Positions 4,951 to 30,229 of a DNA stretch of 35,336 bases are shown here, in pieces. The notes under the pieces are model-generated. The model was not told the origin of the DNA. It saw only the letters and a list, made by a program, of their open reading frames with translations, and made no database searches. This stretch comes from Chromera velia. Lineage: Eukaryota > Sar > Chromeraceae. The DNA is taken from NCBI GenBank assembly GCA_018398765.1, contig JAHBMJ010001527.1, positions 15,001 to 50,336 of the forward strand. The letters are read 5' to 3'. The translations under genes were made by a program, and so were the position numbers. The stretch's first letter is position 1. Every line of letters begins with the position of its first letter.

Positions 4951-7047
4951 CAGGCCAGGGATTTTTGGCAAGCCTGTACAAGCCTGCCAGCCGAGCTCAC
5001 TAACCAGCCTACGCCAGGCTATTTTAACAGGCCATGTACACGTTATTTTGACAATTCTTACTCTGTTTGTGGGGGGGAGGGTGACGACGTAAATGGGGGG
5101 GGAGTGACTGAGGAATCTATAGATGCGACGTGCACCGATGGTTCTGCGTGTCCATGTCAATCCCTCGGGATCATGTATAGTTTGGACTGCCTTGATGGAC
5201 ATGTCTGCTCTCTGCTCTCTCTTTCTCCTCGTCTCCGGTCTGCTCTCTCTCTTCCCTCGAATTTTTCTGCTACTTCTAAGCTGTGGCCCAGGTCTGGGGG
5301 ATGGAAAGGGGTGAGGAAGGGTTTGTTATCTTTTTTATCGTACGTGAATGCACTCAGGGGAGGTCTTGTGGGTCAAAGATGTAGGGGGCGTATGTCCGTA
5401 TCTGCTGCTGCATGGGCAGATCTACAATGTCGTTGGTTCTCCATATTAGAGGTGTATCGTTTAGGCCCCAAGTTGCCTGAGAAGGGGTCTGCGGTTGTGA
5501 AGGCGATGAAGGCTGTGCTTGTCATTACACCCGTAGATAGAGCTAAGGGCGACTTAGCCTTCCTCTGCCATCGGATGTATATTGCGTGTATACATAGGGC
5601 CTTCCTTGCGGATGCCGCATATGTTCGACTTACTCTAACACAAATCGCTGATCGTGAGTCTCTGTTGTTTGATCCATCTTTGTGGTCTGTCCCAATAAAG
5701 ATATTCATGGCTCAGTTTGCGATTCCTAGCAGAACACGACACGAGTTTGGGACGGGGATTTTATGGCCACAGAGGAAGTCTTAGGGGTCCGATGGTTTGG
5801 TTGTGGGCGGGTGGGATGCATTGAAATTCAGGCAGTTGGTTTCATATGCAAAGCACTGTTGGAAGGGGGTCTTTTCTTTTTTCTGCAAGGTTCTTAACGG
5901 ACTCTTGAAATTTTTTGCACCACATTGTGATTTGAATTCTGTTTTCCAGTTTTAAGAAATGTTGGGTGACTTCAACGTTGGGTTCGGACGGGTTGCAGAC
6001 AGGGCGTCGTCTATGCGTGCCTTACCGAGCTGGCCGATAGGTTCGGTTGCAATTGCGGTGGATAACATTAAGGCGTACTTTCCATCTTTACCCCGAGCTG
6101 ACTTTTTGTCTTCCCTCGATGCTTTGGTGTGTTTTCTTTCTTCTTCTTCCAGGCATCGTTTTGCTGTGCTGAGAAAGGGGGGGTCTGTTTTCATGAAGAG
6201 TACGGGCCCTGCTGTCGGGGAAGCGTGGCTCACAAGGTGTGTGAAGAAGAAACAAGAGGTTTTCCTCTCCACACACGCAAACCATGCACATGCTACCTGT
6301 GTTTCGTTGAGTTTGTTGTGTGATTTAATTAGAGTTGACTTTAATTCAAATACTATCCGGGTGTTGGGGGAGAGGGTTGCTCAGGTGGAGGGATTCCCGC
6401 AAGGGAGCCCGTGTTCACCTGGGGGCACACATTTTTATGCTGCATGGAAGGAATATCAGAAAGCACTTCTCCTGAATGTCACTTCATGGCAGTCCTCTAA
6501 GTGGTTCATGAGGCGATACATGGACGATCGGACGTTGATGGCTCGTTCTGTCGCTCCCAATTTTCTTGGAAACGATCCTTTTATGCTTTCGCTACAGCGC
6601 TATGATTTCTACCATGGTACATGTATTTTGGAGAGACAGTATGGAAAGGAGGTTTTGGGTCTCTCTCTCTTCACTCTCGAGAGTGCCCCAAAAGTTGTTC
6701 TGTTCTCTCCAAAGAATCCGAACAGAGCTGTTTTTTCCCCTTTCATTGATGGGTCTTTAGAAACTCCACATGGAAGTGAATTGTCGTTACATTCTTCCGT
6801 TCATTTGCGTCCCCGGTTCGTTCATGGGAATGCATGTGTGGTCAGCCGCTCTGCGCGTTCAGGTCTGATATGTGGTCACGTTACAAGAATGCTTTTATCC
6901 GCAAATCTACCCACCTGTTTGATGGTAAAGGAGTTGTCATTAATGTTCGTTGAATTGTTGTCCTTGCGATGGCCTTTTAATTTTCTCAAGAAACAATATT
7001 TGCGTGTTTTAGTCCGTACGGCCAGCACGGATCTGATTGAAGGATGA
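4951..7047 (+). pseudogene. Decayed reverse transcriptase (YMDD type)
   Basis: A single frame stays open from 4951 to TGA at 7045-7047 except for TAG at 5782-5784 and TAA at 5953-5955. Ordered reverse-transcriptase motifs are visible. An N-terminal block LVITPVDRAKGDLAFLCHRM lies at about 5518-5577. Motif A DNIKAYFPSL starts at 6061. Motif B FPQGSPCSP has its QGSP at 6400-6411. The catalytic box YMDD is at 6517-6528. No integrase, RNase H or endonuclease motif is apparent, and no LTRs flank it, so it is a non-LTR or Penelope-like type or a fragment. GACAGGCCA words lie on both sides (about 4949, 7662 and 7716) and may be remnants of element ends. No start codon is assigned. The motifs are intact, so the two stops suggest recent decay or stop suppression. 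Confidence 0.75.
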
Positions 7048-20507: not shown

Positions 20508-23500
20508 TCAACGGAAGACAAACAGACCCCCTGCAGGTTGGGGTGGCTGTTGCACCATCTGCATGCGAATCTGCACAGGCACGCCCCCGTGAAGCCCCCC
20601 CCCTGCCTGCATGTTCTGCGGCTGCATGACCATCTGAGGGATGGGGGCTGCCAATGCATGCAAGCGAGGCGGCCCACCTGCCGCGTGTTCCGTTTGGCCC
20701 CTTACCCACACGGCAGGAGGAGGGGAGGGGGAAGTCACCCGACCCTGCGCATTTCCTGCTGTCATGTTGCGACCTGGCAGCTCTCCCTGCTGTGGGCCGG
20801 TCTGCATGGTCAACTGCTGTGGTGGTGCAGCGACAGCGAAATTGGGGGGGTTCTGCTGGGGGGTCTGTTGCTGTTGCTGCTGTTGTTGTTGCTGGGGGCG
20901 TCCGAAGGTTGACGAAGCCCTTGGGGGGGGCCAGCCGGGGGCCATCAGGATCTGTGGTGCCTGCTGTAGATGCTGCTGCATTGCTGCTTCCTGGCCTTGC
21001 GCCTGTATTTGCGGGTAGAAGAGCCGGGGGGTTGGGGAGAGAATGGGAAGGCAGGGATGGGCATACGGGTAAGCCGACTGCAGCGGTTGCCCCTGGGCAG
21101 GTTGCTGTTGGGGTCTCTGTCGCTGAACTGAGGGCTGAGGATGAAGGAGGTGGGCGTCGCTGGGGGGGGAGAAGGCAGGCGGAAATCCGGCTGGGGGTCC
21201 CTGCATGCGGACTCCCTGGGTTCGTTGGATCGGAACGGCTCTTGCGGGAGTCGCTGACGGGGGTGGACGCACACGTGCTCGCACCTCTCCCTCCGTAGAG
21301 GGCACCCGGGGGACTGCTGCTGCTGGGGGCATGGGAGACAGACTTCTGACTGAGTTCTCGCGACTGCCCTCTGCTATGGCCCCCGCAGTAGCCACCAGAG
21401 AAGGCACAGGGGGCAGAGAGGGGCGCTGGGCCCAATACCCATGCTGTGGAGGGCCCCCAGGCTGCTGCAAGTCGGACAGCAGCACGGCGGGTGCAGCTGC
21501 AGGCATGGGAGAGGGGAGGGGGGGTCGGGATGATTCGGGAGCCTGCATTGGGGGGATTCTTTCTGTTGTCTGTGGAGTGGCTGATTGTCGTTGCGTAGAG
21601 ACGCGCATGGTCTGCATGGGGGCATTCAAGAGGACACCCGGGTGGGGGCCTCTCATGGGGGTGCTGGACATCTGCGGGGGCACACGGTAGTAGAGGGCGA
21701 GGCTGGCCGGGTGACCTGAGGGGGGAGCATTGGGTGTGTCTCGAACCGAGCTGGGGATGACGGAGGTTGCTCTCGAGGAGACAGGACCTGAAGGAGCGAC
21801 CAGCACTGCAGTGGCTGCGTGCGCTTGGACGGCCCCGGCAGACCCATAGGAAGGCGCGGGGTGGGCCACAGAGGGCACGGCAGCAGCGGCAGTTTCGGCT
21901 CTTGGGGATGTAGGTTGTTTCTTTTGCTGCAAGGTTGCGGGGGTGGACATTCTAGGTGCAGGGGGGACGGAAGCGGCTGCAGGACGCTCCTTCAGTTTGG
22001 GTGCCTCCGCTCTGGTGCGCACGGCAGAGCTGGGGCCTGCATCTGGTATGTGTGCTGTTTCTTTTGCGCCTTCTTCTTCTGTCTGCTGTCTTGTCGGCTT
22101 CCTCTTCGCCATGGAAGAAGTGGAAGAGACTTTAGGTGCAGGTTTGCTCAGCGTGGTTGCAGGTCTCTCTTTCTCCTTCTTCACGGAGATGGAAGGCACT
22201 TGTTTGGCCTTCGCTTTTGCCGTCTTCGGTTTCGGGCGAACTCGGGAGGTGAGGGTCGTCTGGGCCTCAGAAACCTTCGGGAGGGAAGAGGAGACCTGAC
22301 CACCAGGCAGGGGCGAAGAAAGTGCAACAGCCGCAGCCGCAGCAGATGCCTGTGCTGCAGCTGCCCCCCCGGCGGCTTCTGTTGACAGAACAGCTGCTAC
22401 AGCCGTCTGAGTGGGTGGAGCTGCACTGCCTCCGACGGGCCCGTGATGAGTCTGGGACTGTTGAGGGACCCCTCCGACGGGCCCGTGATGAGTCTGGGAC
22501 TGTTGAGGGACCCTCCCAATGGAGGAGTAGTGAAGACTTCCTGCTCGCAGGGGGGGGTGGGATGAGTCGGCTTTTGTCCCGCCCAGCTCGGGAACTCCTC
22601 CTTTTGTAGGAGGCGGCTTCTTCGTTGCGGCAGCTGCCACGTTTCTGGCGGGTGCCTTCTTTGCTACTGCAGCTGGCGGTGCTGCTGGAGCTGCAGCGTC
22701 CCTTCCCTTCTTCTGTGCCTGCTCGCCCCCTGCCCTCCCGATGGAGAACGTGCTGGGGTTCTTGTTGCCCAGCTGAAGGAGGGGACGGGGACCGCCTGCT
22801 GGGAGCGGCGCCGCCCTGTCCCCTGCCGGGAGGGGCCGTCCTCCACTCCCCGCCGCCGCACTGGCAGCTGCAGGCCCGGGCGTCGCGAGTCCATGATCAG
22901 TCGCTGCGGCTCTGACTGTGGGCATTGCAGAAGGGGCTCCTGGTACAAACGAGTGCACAGTCTGTGTGGCTGTTGGGTGAGGAGCAGGCGTGGAAGCTCG
23001 GAATGCCTGCATGTGGTGTATCGGAATGAACGTCGGGGGGCCGGGGTGGGGGTGGACAGAAGCGGGTCGCCCCCCTCCTGGCATTAGTGTTGTGCGGTGA
23101 TGCACGGCTCCAGGTGGGGGGGTGTAGTGGGGGAATTGTTGAGGGATGACGGCAGAAGACTGGACCTGTACTGGGTTGGCACTGAGGGGGGCATGGTGTG
23201 GGGCTCCTGCGGGCTGGCGAGACGGAGACGGGGAAGGTCCATTGGCGGCCTCGGTGGGAGGAAGAGTGGAGACGCCAATGGGAACTCTGGGCACTGTGCC
23301 CCCCTCAACCGTCTCCACGGCCTTGGGTTTCTTCCGAGCCCCTCCTTCTGAGTCCCTCACCGTTCCTGCACCTCCCTTTTCCTTTTCCTTCCCTTTTGTC
23401 CCTGTTGCTTTCTGCTTCCCCCCCTGAGCACTGACACTGGAGGAACTCGGCAAAGAGGGACGCGCCCTTGCTCCTCCAGAAGAACTAGTGGAGGCCTTGC

Positions 23501-25529
23501 TGTCCTTCCCCTGCAATCAGGCAGGCAGGAGGATGACAGGACAAGTGAACCAGCACGAACGTTCCTTCATTCTGCTGCCTGGAGATGGGAAGTGAAGAAT
23601 GGTGTGCACAGATAGGACAGCACAGGACAGGACAGAGCATGGTTGAATGTCTCACTTGTCAAAGCAAAAACGTGCCTGCCAGAGAGTCTTCGTACGAGGA
23701 GATAGGGAGAGTACCAACGCACACAAGCAGCAAGGACAGGGTGTATCGATCTGACAGACTTACCGGCTGACTCACTGAATCAACGAGCCCTATGAAAAAG
23801 GAAGGAGGCACAGAGGCGGGCTGAGAGAGAAAGCAACACAGGCAGGGAGGGACACACTGAGAAGGACAAAAAAAAAGCAGACATGCAGACCTGTTGAGTC
23901 TTCACCTGCTTCGCGGGAGCAGCCGCAGCCGACGCAGCCGCTGCCGGACCCGTCTGCTCTGCGGGAACCCCATTGGCGACGGCAGGCGGGGCGGAGAGAC
24001 GGGAGCCCTGTCCCACCGCAGGTGCGTGGGCAGGTCGGTGCTGGTGTGGGTGCGCATGGTTGTGGTAGGGGAAGTGCCGGGACCCAGACCCAGACCCTGA
24101 CTGTGCACCTGCCCGGGGTCCCTGCTGGTGGGACTCGGGGAGATCCCCCCCACGGAAAACGGTGACTGCTTGTGGAGGGGCAAATGGTGGAATTCCGTGG
24201 TTTTGGTGCGCATGTCCGTTTGCGTGGAGGTGCAACGGGGGGTGTTGCATGCGCATCGGTGGCTGCTGTGGGTACGTTTGCGTTCCCACATGAGGGGGCG
24301 GATGAAAGGGGGGTTGATGGAAGTTGTGCGGTGGGTTGGGGGCCAGAGGGAGTTTTGGAGGCTCTGTGGGAGGGTGGGAGTCTGCTGGAACATTCGTGCT
24401 CTGGGCATGGTTATTGTCTTGCAGATGATCAGGAGGGAGGGGGGCAGGGTCAACCACGGGAGGCTGAAGGGGAAAAGAAAGTTTGAGGCCGTCCACTGAG
24501 TGGGGTATTTTGGGAGGGTTGAACTGAGAGCTCCACTGGGCTCTTGAGAGTCTGTCCGTTTCTGTGGGGATGTTCTCTGGAAGAATCGCATAGAACATCC
24601 CCCCGTCAGAGCCGTCCATCGCCCCCCCATTTCCCCTGCTGGAATCGTCCAAGTCGTCGTCTGGCCCCGGAAGGCGGATGTTCTCTGCCAGACCCTCCAG
24701 TTGAAGGAACGTGTGGCCTGAAGGCTTGTGCCACAGACAGAGCTGCTCCATGAACTCTCGTCGATAGGCTTCAGGAATCAGGGGACCTTCCTGCATGCAT
24801 GCAAACGTACAGACAGACACGAAGACATGCAGAGGGAGGGCCATGCAGGAGGATCCAGGGTATGTAGAAGTGAGAAAAGACAAGAAGCTGAAGGACATTC
24901 ATTCATTGCGAAAGAAAACTGCACGAAAAGGAAAGGAAAGGAAAGGACAAAAAAAATCAAATCAACGCCCCGTCTCCCTTCTCTGCCGACTTTCGCAAGC
25001 ACCCGAAGATGGGACACATGGGGGTGGATTGCTTACTGTTACCCTTTGCTATTGCCTGACCTTGATGCGATTGACGATCTTCCGCACAGCATCTCTGCAG
25101 ACAGGCGTAGACGGGTAAAAGAAAAAAATAAATCCAGCAGAAGGCCGGATAATCGGCAATCAAATCACGTGATCATACGGTAAAGACCAAACAGGTGGCG
25201 TGCAAATACGGAAACGGAAGGAGAACGGAAGAATAGATAAAATTTCCGTGGGCAACAGCAAAAACCCTTTTACATTCCCCCCTTCTGCCTTCTGCAACCA
25301 TTTACTAAAACTCTCACCCCTATCCCCAACCTGTTGTATTAATATGTTCCTCTGTCTCCTCACCTGTTGACCACAGCCGCTGCCGCCTTTGCCTTCTGCA
25401 CGAGTGAATCCTCCAGCGGGTGCGCAGGACGAAGGCAGAAGTACGGCACGGGAGCTGCCTTGGAGGGATGCAGCCAGGGATGCTTCAGGGCATCTTCCAC
25501 GGACCTGCAAGCACACTCACGCACCCACA

Positions 25530-25583
<54 letters not shown>

Positions 25584-26467
25584 CCTAACACAAACACCCA
25601 CACACGCATTCTCTCTGTCAACAAAATTGCTATCACCGTAGATAACCTCACCTGCATGTGCCAACAGACGGACGGACAATTCCTGTTCCTACAACAAAGC
25701 GTAAGCACTGCCTGGGACACACCCAACAAGGCATTGGGGGAAAATGACTAAGGAGGACAGCTCTTAACCCAAATCATGAACAGAATTTCCTCTCGGCATG
25801 TAGGTACGGGGATTCCGAGCAAAAGCACGAGAAACGGAATGCATGCGAAAGAACAAGAAGAAGAAGAAGAAGAAGTAAACTTGACTGACTCACATTCTGT
25901 CTTGAGGTCTCAGGCTCATCAACCTGAGAATGAAGTCCATCGACTCGTCTGTCCAGTCCTTTGCGAGTTCATTTCTCTCCATAAGGTCCCCTAGAGATTC
26001 GGGAGTCGCCTCCTTGAACAACTCGAACCTCCAGTCCTCGTCCCTCTCGTCACAGGACTGCATCCACACAATCGATCGATCCATCGAGAATTTAGCATCA
26101 CACATTCCAGGGGGGGCACACAACCAGACCCACAAATATCAAAACCCGAAACAATCTATGTTTCCACTTCTCAAGCCTGACGCTTCTCGTCGGGCCGGAC
26201 AACTGACACCGTTTTCGTTCAAAAAGAAACCCCTCTTTGCTTTTTCGTTACGCAACAAACCGCTGCCCTTCCTCACTGCACAAAGAGAGATCACTGCATC
26301 GATCCACACGCGCCATTCATTCTTGCTGATCATGCCTGAAGACGGTTCAGACCTCTCCTCACGCTCGATCTCTCTGACACCCCCACGTACAAGAACACAC
26401 TCAAAGCTGCAAGAAGGACAGGCACCCGGACCAGTCAGGTATGTACGAACGCGCACAGACGCAGACA

Positions 26468-26518
<51 letters not shown>

Positions 26519-27339
26519 GCTCTCTGTCACCAACCCCAATGATTTGTCGTGCAAAGAGAAGGTAATAGGCGGCCCAGCCGAGGTCCCAGCAGTCGACCTT
26601 GGTGGCCAGGTACGGCGACTGAGTGAAGGCCTCGGGGGGACGGAACTTTTTCCCGATGCACCCTCTGTAGGGCACAGGGAGCTCTCGACCCCTGCTGTCC
26701 CTCTTGAACAAAATTGCCTGCAAAGAAGCAAAAGGAATTAACGGAATGGAGGAATACGTCAACAAACTCCCCTTTCTGGATGAGGAAAGTTGAGATGTCC
26801 AGTGCTTCTATGTGAGACGAAAAGCATCGACTTCGGTGGCATCTGAGGTCGACACACAAATAAGAAGCACGAAAGTACTCTCTCGCGCACAAAGTCTATC
26901 TCTGACCACCGCCCACCCGTCTCTCTTTCACTCTGTCGCAGACACAGACATGGCTATCCATGTCTTCTTTTTTCTATTTTCTCTCTCTTTCACATCCCAA
27001 ACAAACAATCGAGGAGCCCATACAAACGCAGAGACAGCGTGGAAGGTGGGGCATATGTTCTTTTCTTTGGACCACTATCTCGCTCTGTTCACTTCCATGG
27101 CCGTCCGACCACACAGCGACAGGCAGACAGAGAGAGAGATAGACGGACCTGTCCTGGGTCGCACACCTTGACCGAAAAGTACTCTGGGACCTCTTTTTTA
27201 TTCTGTTCGTTCTCCTTATCCCCTATGGAGGAGTCCCCCTTTCCATTTCCGTTTCCGTTGGCAATTGCACCCTCATCCGTATCTGCCTTCTTCCGAAACA
27301 AGAGACAGTTCTCCAAGGAGAAATCCTGCATTGCAAAAC

Positions 27340-27377
<38 letters not shown>

Positions 27378-27388
27378 AGAGAGAGACA

Positions 27389-27439
<51 letters not shown>

Positions 27440-29542
27440 ACACACACACACATGAGCAGCCTTATTGAGGACCGCGAGGAAAGTCCGGAGGATCGGAAAT
27501 TAATGAAAGAAAAGCACACGAAGGGCCATCCCTTCTCGTGACCATCCCTGCGAGGAGTCTGTAACTTCTTGTTTCTCCGGCCTCTCTCCTCTTCTCCTCG
27601 CGGTTTGTGCTCTTCACCGTCTTGCCAGAATCGTGCTTCCACGACAATCCTTTTGAGCACTTTTCTTTGACGCAATCGCCTCCTGCACACATACTTTGAC
27701 TCATTTCATGAAAACAGCGTGAAGACACCCACTTCAGGTTTTGATTTTCCTTCTCCAGTCCACCCAACCCATCCCCTTACTTCCTCTCCTCCCCCACCAA
27801 CCTCGACGGTGGCACTCAAAGAGAGCTTCTGTGGCCTGACGGATGTAGAACCTCGCTTGGGGCTCCGGCATGCCGTCGGGGAACAGCTTCAGCTGCAGAG
27901 AGAAACAGGAAGCGGGGGGGGGTTCATTGAGAGCATAAAAGGAAAGACTTCACGACACGCAATGCCGTAGAAAGCACAGACAGAAAGAGGGAGCTTTGGT
28001 TGGTGATGGATCGGCTTTCATGAAGCACTAGAGAAAGTGCATCACCTGGTGTGCAGGACACCGTGCAAAGTCGCGTAGAACAGATCCAATGGGAACAGAA
28101 GCGCAGTTGTTGTCTCTTTTTGTTCGCGCTCGCGGAAAGCCTCACAGACGGAAACTCAAACTCCGCTCCCGACCGACGGACCAATTCCAGGAGGTCCTCT
28201 CCAGGAGCGAAATCAGAGACGACGTAATGGAAATGGGGGTCATGGAAGACCTCTCTCGGGGTCGTCAGGTGGTCCCTCGCTGAGGCCGTCAGGGGGGCAA
28301 AGAAAACCTCTGCAAGGGGCGTCTCCGGCAGGTCTGCATGCATGCAGTCAACACACGCACCGACAAGTTGAACGCACTTCTGATTGTGGGTGCACCTGCT
28401 TTGACAGCAGAAAATAAACAGATGCACTCTCAATCAGTCAGGCGCAGAAGCAAAGGGCCGAACAGACATCCAAGGAACCGTCTTCTTCCCGTCGCCTCCG
28501 CTTGTCCAGTTACCAACTCAAGAAAGTTCAGAAACCCGCAGTACATTTTTCAAAATGTTGCTGAATAACATCACCAAATCAATCAACCATGCATGCCTTG
28601 AGCAGAGAAGCAGAAAAAAAGCTCAAAAGGAGCAGAATGGTAAATCAGGAGCCCAAAAACTGGTGATACATTTCTGTCCTACGAAGAAAGAGAAAGAGAA
28701 AGATCAGGGGTCACTCACCCAGTTCCTTTTGTCTTTCGGCAATTTGCTCCTGCGAGAAGGAAGGAAAGAAAGTGCAGAGAGAGGACGATTAACAAAAGGT
28801 TGCACCGGGACAGGAACCTGGCTGAAGCTTCCAGTCCAGCAGAACAGAAGCGAAAAAAGAGAACAGTGCCCGATCTACTGTTTTATTTTTTGCCCGTCTA
28901 TTTTCAGAAATCCTTTGCACCCACTTGGTTTCTGTGCTTGCCTTGCTACACCCTCGCTCTTGAACACTGGCGTCAGGAGTGACATGTCAGAGCAGGGAGG
29001 GGGTCTGTTATTTCGCACTCGTGGAGAGGAGAGACACCTGTGGTGTGCTCTCTCCCCTCCCCCCCCGCGGCTGCCCTCTCCCACACCTGCCTGCCTGTCC
29101 TTCCTGGCTTCGGTTTCTTCCTCTTCAGTCTCCCTCCAAATCTCTGGACACATGGTTCTGACACAAAGGTGCGTTTACCCAGCTAGTGCATCGATCTCCG
29201 TGTACCTGTCTCCTAGCTACTTCAACGCACCTTTGAGAAAATCTTGATGGCCACTATCGTGCCTGTAGTCAGGGCCACACCCTTGTGCACCGACCCGTAC
29301 AGGCATTGCTGCAAGTCGGTGACACAAGAGGAGAGGAGAAGGGAGACTGCATCCAAAAAAAAAGGAACGCCACGCCGCTGTTGGGAAGAAGGAAAGGGGA
29401 GACGCTCTCCAGACCGAACAAGAGACAACAGAGGACAGACACACAGAGAGGCCAAGTCACTCACCTGCACTTCACAAATGAGTTGGTAGTTCTCCAAGCC
29501 ACCCTTCAGGATGTGCGGCACCTCTGCAGGTAGGTTGAGCAT
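20508..29542 (-). CDS. Pseudokinase with a long disordered tail, 12 exons
   Basis: My model is complement(join(20508..23510, 23891..24790, 25061..25094, 25364..25504, 25894..26057, 26535..26717, 27149..27339, 27802..27892, 28146..28333, 28719..28749, 29231..29308, 29465..29542)). It gives 5082 nt and 1693 residues; all introns are GT-AG and in phase. Kinase landmarks run in order. VAIK lysine is K48. The hinge-like YVVSDFAPGEDLLELV lies near 98-114. Helix E is PEPQARFYIRQATEALFECH. The catalytic loop is MQDFSLEN (159-166). CDPGQ (215-219) replaces DFG, and FRPPEAF replaces APE. VDCWDLGWAAYYLL is helix F. The fold ends with DRMSVEDALKHPWL (333-346), a CAMK-like signature. The glycine loop is Q-C-L-Y-G-S-V, keeping one glycine of three. 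An Asn/Gly/Lys/Glu-rich insert sits before the DPG (about 171-206). Residues 394-1693 are low complexity. Loss of HRD His/Arg and of the DFG Phe argues for little or no catalysis, although both aspartates and K48 remain. An alternative first exon exists at 29651-29636. Confidence 0.85.
20860..20905 (-). repeat. Poly-glutamine codon run
   Basis: A CAG/CAA run within the last exon of the pseudokinase gene encodes about eleven consecutive glutamines followed by TPQQN. Mixed CAG and CAA codons limit slippage. Poly-Q tracts often mediate loose protein-protein contacts; the effect here is unknown. Confidence 0.85.
22431..22514 (-). repeat. 42-bp in-frame tandem repeat (14 residues, two copies)
   Basis: Two head-to-tail copies with a 42-base period encode GPVGGVPQQSQTHH-type units in the last exon of the pseudokinase gene. 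The copies are nearly identical at DNA level, so the duplication is recent. The period is a multiple of three and keeps the frame open. Confidence 0.9.
25525..25583. repeat. (CA)n(GA)n microsatellite next to a splice acceptor
   Basis: It lies in the intron between exons 8 and 9 of the pseudokinase gene, ending about 20 bases upstream (in transcript sense) of the acceptor at 25505. In the transcript it reads as (UC)n(GU)n, so it may serve as part of the 3' splice signal. Confidence 0.9.
26466..26518. repeat. (CA)n(GA)n microsatellite next to a splice donor
   Basis: It lies in the intron between exons 7 and 8 of the pseudokinase gene, starting about 16 bases after the donor at 26534. In the transcript it reads (UC)n(GU)n. 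Confidence 0.9.
27342..27452. repeat. (CA)n(GA)n(CA)n microsatellite abutting a splice acceptor
   Basis: About 110 bases, directly adjoining the acceptor at 27340 of the exon that carries the altered catalytic loop. In the transcript the acceptor is (GU)n followed by GCAG, with almost no conventional pyrimidine tract. Confidence 0.92.
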
Positions 29543-30229
29543 GATCGACAAAAAAAAGGAGAAATGATAAGGAGTCAAGCAAGAAGCGAAATCTCATACA
29601 GAGAGAGACGGGTCCATTGCGAAACTCCACCGCACCTGGTTGCTCAGCCATGATGCCACCACCTCGGACACAAAGAGACCTGTGTCCCGGAAGTTCGAAG
29701 CTTGAACAGAAAATCTACCCAGATCACGTGCTTGTACGAACAGAAAAAAGTGCCAATATGGATTATGAGGCAGAGAACCCTCTAGCGCCAGACTGAACAG
29801 CCCACGCTGCGAACGCCCGTCGGGAAATCGTTTTCTACCTCACACCTGATTCAAAGAGCCAGGCAGATGAAAGGGAACAGGAAACAAGAAGCGGCAGACA
29901 TCATCAGCTATGAAGTGATCGATCCAACTTCCAGGATTTTCCGGGAAATGACATGAAAGGACTCATCGAAGTTGTGCAACTGCGGTGCTGATTGAGGTAT
30001 CTTTTTCCGTCCCGGCGCGACGGCCGGCCTGCCGGCCTTGGGCCTTGAAACCTGCGGGGCCGAGGCGCGCGCATCGGCGCGCTATAGCTCTCGCGCGAGA
30101 AAGTTTTAATTTGCGTTAATTTTTTTTGTGTCGCGCGGGGTAAAGATACGCGCAATTCGTCAGACTTAATTCGGGTGTTGTTTCAAAAAATTTCAAAGCG
30201 GCCGTCGATATACAAAGTGTTGCTCCCTT
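29543..30229. promoter_or_regulatory. Upstream region of the pseudokinase gene
   Basis: This stretch should hold the leader and promoter of the minus-strand pseudokinase gene. A possible extra first exon lies at 29651-29636 (ATGGCTGAGCAACCAG). It would splice in phase to an acceptor at 29524 and replace the MLNLPA start by MAEQP. A GC-rich palindromic tract (about 30012-30110, including GGCCGGCCTGCCGGCC and CGCGCG words) lies roughly 370-570 bases upstream. It may be promoter-associated or repeat-derived. No TATA element is convincing. Confidence 0.3.

Follow-up and report, generated by a model that had tools for sequence, protein, structure and literature searches.

A candidate family of atypical protein kinases carrying DPG in place of DFG

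Structure of the gene and its surroundings

The stretch of DNA analysed here, hereafter the window (35,336 nucleotides), carries on its minus strand between positions 29651 and 20508 a gene of 13 exons with a protein kinase domain. Each of its 12 introns starts with GT and ends with GCAG, every join is in frame, and the open frame was kept in none of 20000 base shuffles of exons 1-10 (1142 nt, in an earlier version of the model). The initial annotation had placed twelve exons at 26535-29542; the intact frames that it described hold, but this interval covers exons 2-8 only: an HPW motif at 25482-25474 closes the kinase domain, and the gene continues to 20508. If exon 5 ends at 28182, the protein has about 1675 residues, in which the kinase domain is followed by a post-kinase segment that is conserved in the paralogues too and then by a long tail rich in Pro, Ala and Gln.

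The model was compared with two paralogues in the same genome (contigs C3647 and C797), which have the exon structure of the window gene in common with it over exons 1-12. Exon 1 (29636..29651, all exons being on the minus strand) holds the start codon and encodes MAEQP before a GT donor, and the first exons of the paralogues are similar, with 13 nt rather than 16 and the same phase; translation could alternatively begin at an in-frame ATG at 29541. The kinase domain begins in exon 2 (29465..29523; GCAG and GT borders), whose last codon encodes the Gln at the Gly50 place. Exon 3 (29231..29308) continues with the remainder of the glycine loop, QCLYG (29308-29294), and the lysine of the VAIK motif (29245-29243), and is followed by exon 4 (28719..28749), by exon 5 (28182..28333) with the alphaC Glu (28310-28308), beta4-beta5 and the hinge, and by exon 6 (27802..27892) with alphaD-alphaE. 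The end of exon 5 was taken from the comparison with the two paralogues and lies 12 codons before the end initially modelled. Exon 7 (27149..27339) encodes the catalytic loop MQDFSLEN (27331-27308), the DPG motif (27160-27152) and an insert; the paralogues carry the same motifs without the insert, having 29 fewer residues there. In exon 8 (26535..26717) lie the end of the activation segment, GKKFRPPE, and helix F, KVDCWDLG. Exons 2 to 6 and exon 8 have the same lengths in all three copies (59, 78, 31, 152, 91 and 183 nt, respectively).

Downstream, exon 9 (25894..26057) has GCAG and GT borders, encodes helices G-H and aligns in both paralogues. Splice borders together with the paralogue comparison also gave exon 10 (25364..25504), where the kinase domain ends with HPW, and exon 11 (25061..25094). 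Exon 12 (23906..24790) encodes the conserved post-kinase segment (IPEAYR, KPSGHT, QLEGL) and then a Pro/His-rich tail; its first part aligns in both paralogues and its donor at 23905 was assigned by eye. Exon 13 (20508..23510), joined in frame, provides a Pro/Ala/Gln-rich tail of about 1000 residues and the stop codon. This tail is probably disordered, contains a run of Gln and tandem copies of VPQQSQTHHGPVGG, and was without a match in a Pfam scan.

Two other features of the window were noticed. Exon 7, which encodes MQD and DPG, is immediately preceded at its acceptor by an extended GT-rich microsatellite that includes a CT stretch (27340-27440, minus strand); this repeat might affect splicing. 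On the plus strand an open frame of 362 amino acids (5959-7047) has a YMDD motif and looks by eye like a reverse transcriptase, and the Pfam scan of this frame gave no match. Scanning the window for Rfam families and for tRNAs gave no match.

Altered and retained residues in a conserved family

The kinase fold originally proposed for this gene agreed with the Pfam profile Pkinase (PF00069), which matched at 89.8 bits (E 2.5e-25; cut-off 31.7) over positions 12-263 of 263, a score that belongs to the shorter query with the corrected exon 5 (82.6 bits with the earlier model). The unusual spellings reported for it were also confirmed, the coordinates given for MQD and DPG being exact: HRD reads MQD (27331-27323), DFG reads DPG (27160-27152), APE reads PPE (26639-26631) and the glycine loop retains its third glycine alone (29296-29294), while the VAIK motif (29254-29243) with its lysine, the Asp and Asn of the catalytic loop, the Asp of DPG and the Asp of helix F are all in place. 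Two changes had been overlooked, namely the replacement of the catalytic-loop lysine (K168 in PKA) by Ser and that of the P+1 'GT' by 'GK'. PKA numbers were assigned by aligning the protein with ordinary kinases from its own genome. In this numbering the changes are Gly50 to Gln, Gly52 to Cys, HRD to MQD, Lys168 to Ser, DFG to DPG, GT to GK and APE to PPE, and the residues retained are Lys72, Glu91, Asp166 (the catalytic Asp, 27325-27323), Asn171, Asp184 (the metal-binding Asp of DPG, 27160-27158), the helix F Asp, and Val57, Ala70 and Leu173 of the C-spine. The alphaC Glu aligns with that of all seven ordinary kinases having an N-lobe.

The spliced protein was compared with its own genome (177.8 Mb in 4040 contigs) and gave 46 exon-level matches with E values not above 10, among them the window itself along with ordinary kinases and weak matches. 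Both C3647 and C797 have the twelve corresponding exons with open frames (exons 1-12 compared) and retain MQD, DPG and PPE; 206 of the 286 gap-free kinase columns are identical in the three proteins, and so are the stretches FAMQDFSLENCLLF, VCDPGQ and GKKFRPPE, with silent differences inside them. The view that the protein is maintained and not decaying is supported by Nei-Gojobori dN/dS values for the kinase domain of 0.111 (window/C3647) and 0.124 (window/C797), the third pair (C3647/C797) giving 0.037. The corresponding dS values were 1.68, 1.70 and 1.03, so that the two comparisons with the window are near saturation. Constraint is looser in the post-kinase segment (dN/dS of 0.38, 0.43 and 0.23 in the same order of pairs), and in exon 5 the pair C3647/C797 differs by 24 synonymous and no nonsynonymous changes.

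Two further loci resemble this gene. C998 (L041) carries a decayed copy in which, within 6 kb, exons 5 and 12 alone match well and exon 3 matches weakly with in-frame stops; dN/dS for its exon 5 is mixed (0.26 against C797, 0.08 against C3647 and 0.07 against the window). C83 (L042) carries a fragment of the same gene, by eye nearer to the window copy than to C3647 or C797, with two weak matches to the insert of the window exon 7 (GDKENEQ).

Deeper relatives carry the same signature. C750, with 33% identity to the window protein, reads FRD, HSLEN, DPG and FRPPE, and C3597 reads LRD, ISAEN, DPG and FRPPE. All five genes (window, C3647, C797, C750 and C3597), which we call DPG kinases, have DPG, PPE, Ser at 168, Gln at 50 and GK; Cys, Ser or Ala stands at the Gly52 place and Gly55 is kept in every one of them. 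Invariant across the five are the places of Lys72, Glu91, Asp166, Asn171, Asp184, Val57, Ala70 and Leu173. The Arg of HRD is lost only in the MQD trio (window, C3647, C797), and the first position of this motif, which is Tyr in PKA according to PMC3415842, is a hydrophobic M, F or L throughout the family. By comparison, in nine ordinary kinases from this genome, whose choice was biased towards strong Pkinase matches, Lys168, the P+1 Thr and DFG are present in 9/9, and Gly50 with Gly52 in 7/7 of those with an N-lobe. The alphaC place of the regulatory spine is Ala in the five DPG kinases versus Leu (6/7) or Tyr (1/7) in the ordinary ones. Pkinase scores are 89.8 bits for the window and 103.2, 104.6, 103.3 and 52.3 bits for the other members.

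In a maximum-likelihood tree the five DPG kinases stand on one side of a branch (support 100/99) against the nine ordinary kinases, the trees being midpoint-rooted for drawing only, and the same grouping persists at 100/99 after removal of the five motif stretches (37 columns). A search of the genome with the pattern GK.[FY]R[AP]PE found four places, all of them in DPG kinases (control 0), this pattern missing C750, whose motif is split by an intron. A second pattern for sisters bearing DFG, CD[FLSP]GQA, found three places (C3597, C1777, C896) versus two for the reversed control, and is blind to members in which an intron splits DPGQ/A; the match in C1777 had no kinase context within 351 bases. 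A set of six loci comprised the DPG kinase C3597, one ordinary HRD kinase (C608) and four (C1746, C487, C892, C3445) in which a script found no kinase motif. Canonical-motif relatives, with the window copy as an assembly error, had been named initially as the outcome that would overturn the reading; what was found is that all four other members keep DPG and PPE, in a search for DFG-bearing sisters that is incomplete.

The Phe of DFG varies elsewhere in this genome, since two kinases with HRD and the catalytic-loop Lys have DWG (L007, C200) and DLG (L080, C608), once each; a DPG call at L006 was false, the true motif being DFG, and all three loci lie outside the nine ordinary rows of the tree. 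Pro at this place was seen in the DPG kinase family only, among the kinases examined in the genome. The change of APE to PPE is mild, because the nine ordinary HRD/DFG kinases have Ala at this place in three cases and Pro in two, with Ser in the remaining four. We therefore rejected PPE as a sign of a dead kinase, PPE being shared by 2/9 and SPE standing in 4/9 of these ordinary kinases. Two ordinary HRD/DFG kinases with PPE are L028 (C2023) and L035 (C156).

Catalytic competence and the competing readings

The initial annotation called this protein a pseudokinase. In PMC4718504 a pseudokinase is defined in sequence by the absence of the Lys of VAIK, the Asp of HRD or the Asp of DFG, and the label fails by that definition because none of Lys72, Asp166 and Asp184 is lost. 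The analogies offered with WNK and CASK do not fit directly either: WNK is without the beta3 Lys and CASK without the DFG Asp (PMC4718504), and the window kinase has both, at 29245-29243 and 27160-27158, respectively. The sharing of most of its unusual spellings with four related genes, together with the presence of the catalytic residues, makes the gene look like a member of a distinct maintained family and not like a dead copy.

Among solved structures, members of the CAMK group (CaMK1D, CaMKII) and PLK4 are the best matches, the whole kinase domain aligning and the HPW end motif being alike. CaMK1D was best for the window protein alone (4.5e-11), and a profile of four DPG kinases gave PLK4 (2e-24) and CaMKII (2.3e-24), with SIK3 also matching and Aurora lower, scores that leave the group unsettled. 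Relative to CAMK and PLK4, what changes in the DPG kinases is Gly50/Gly52, the His of HRD (and its Arg in the MQD trio), the catalytic-loop Lys, the Phe of DFG and the P+1 GT. The reading that we favour, with a probability of roughly 0.55, is that the window gene belongs to a small family of divergent, CAMK-like kinases, maintained in this genome, whose members bind ATP and transfer phosphate with altered geometry; judged from sequence, the DPG kinases most likely are atypical, bind ATP and have at least weak activity. The side chains for Mg-ATP binding and for transfer are kept (beta3 Lys, alphaC Glu, catalytic Asp, Asn and the metal-binding Asp of DPG), as are the Val, Ala and Leu of the adenine pocket. 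The changes that are fixed in the family surround the gamma-phosphate (Gln for Gly50, Cys, Ser or Ala for Gly52, Ser for Lys168, GK for GT) or affect the regulatory spine (Pro for the Phe of DFG). ATP would thus be bound through the retained residues and its phosphate transferred with altered geometry, probably with low or specialised activity. In non-RD kinases activity is independent of phosphorylation of the activation loop, and the MQD trio, having lost the Arg of HRD, would be independent of it in the same way. The long tail of the window protein would serve targeting or the binding of partners.

Two precedents count for activity. PLK4, an active kinase, reads HRDLTLSN in the profile alignment, with Thr where PKA has K168. 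According to PMC6442604, WNG1 has no glycine loop and yet is active. The WNG kinases of Toxoplasma resemble the DPG kinases in being divergent, with an abnormal glycine loop and conserved catalytic residues of VAIK, HRD and DFG, but they are without the glycine loop and the beta1 strand (PMC6442604), whereas the loop region of the DPG kinases can be aligned and has Gly55 in 5/5; membership of the WNG kinases was hence rejected.

Whether the DPG kinases are pseudokinases in practice, binding nucleotide without phosphotransfer and acting as allosteric regulators or scaffolds, like most JAK JH2 domains, is the most serious alternative, and one that we consider possible but clearly less probable. 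According to PMC4718504 the gamma-phosphate is positioned between the tip of the glycine loop and Lys168, so that with Gly52 and Lys168 both replaced two elements of this clamp are replaced, which could abolish transfer; moreover, Gly50 is replaced and the Phe of DFG is Pro in all five members, and with Ala at the alphaC place in 5/5 the regulatory spine may not assemble. An intact glycine loop with VAIK is described in PMC4718504 as the best predictor of activity so far, and the broken loop of the window kinase counts against activity. That source also warns that sequence cannot decide whether a kinase is active. The long low-complexity tail would also fit a scaffold. The one precedent found in the literature on DPG motifs in kinases and pseudokinases is JAK2 JH2 (PMC3616975), which binds ATP and has low activity, the JH2 domains of JAK1 and TYK2 being inactive (PMC4718504). 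JH2 domains also keep the beta3 Lys and Asn171, but they have Asn for the catalytic Asp and keep Gly50 and Gly52 (PMC4718504), whereas the DPG kinases have lost these glycines and keep the catalytic Asp, found in the window kinase at 27325-27323, for which a JH2-like pseudokinase was rejected. Inactivity would be expected to relax the catalytic Asp, the Asn and the metal-binding Asp, and these are invariant in 5/5.

A rebuilt clamp would leave the DPG kinases active through a new catalytic arrangement, and we regard it as unlikely. Gly52 and Lys168 would have been lost together and the P+1 Lys of GK.FRPPE would have taken over; this invariant Lys could approach the gamma-phosphate from the opposite side, an idea to which we give equally little weight. 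In PKA, Thr201 contacts Asp166 and Lys168. Ser for Lys168 and GK occur in 5/5 DPG kinases against Lys168 and the P+1 Thr in 9/9 ordinary kinases, and PMC4718504 gives a precedent in WNK, where a lysine is supplied from another place. Against it, the end of the activation segment is one residue shorter than in ordinary kinases, because of which the P+1 Lys aligns with 201 or 202 depending on gap placement. Finally, a decaying gene or an assembly artefact is very improbable and was rejected: although decay does occur in the family, as the degraded C998 and the fragment C83 indicate, three independent loci on different contigs agree in exon structure, have open frames and encode the same motif stretches residue for residue, under strong purifying selection, exon 5 of C3647/C797 included.

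Significance of the DPG kinases

In the literature on Chromera kinases, the kinome and pseudokinases we found no description of the DPG kinase family, which is not proof of its absence in print. The family is a natural experiment on which residues a kinase truly needs, since the residues for metal and ATP are kept and the parts that position the gamma-phosphate are swapped. It also illustrates that a kinase judged only by how its motifs are spelled, such as MQD or DPG, can wrongly be taken for a dead one. Should the host be a photosynthetic relative of apicomplexan parasites, the DPG kinases may also bear on the origins of divergent kinases in that group.
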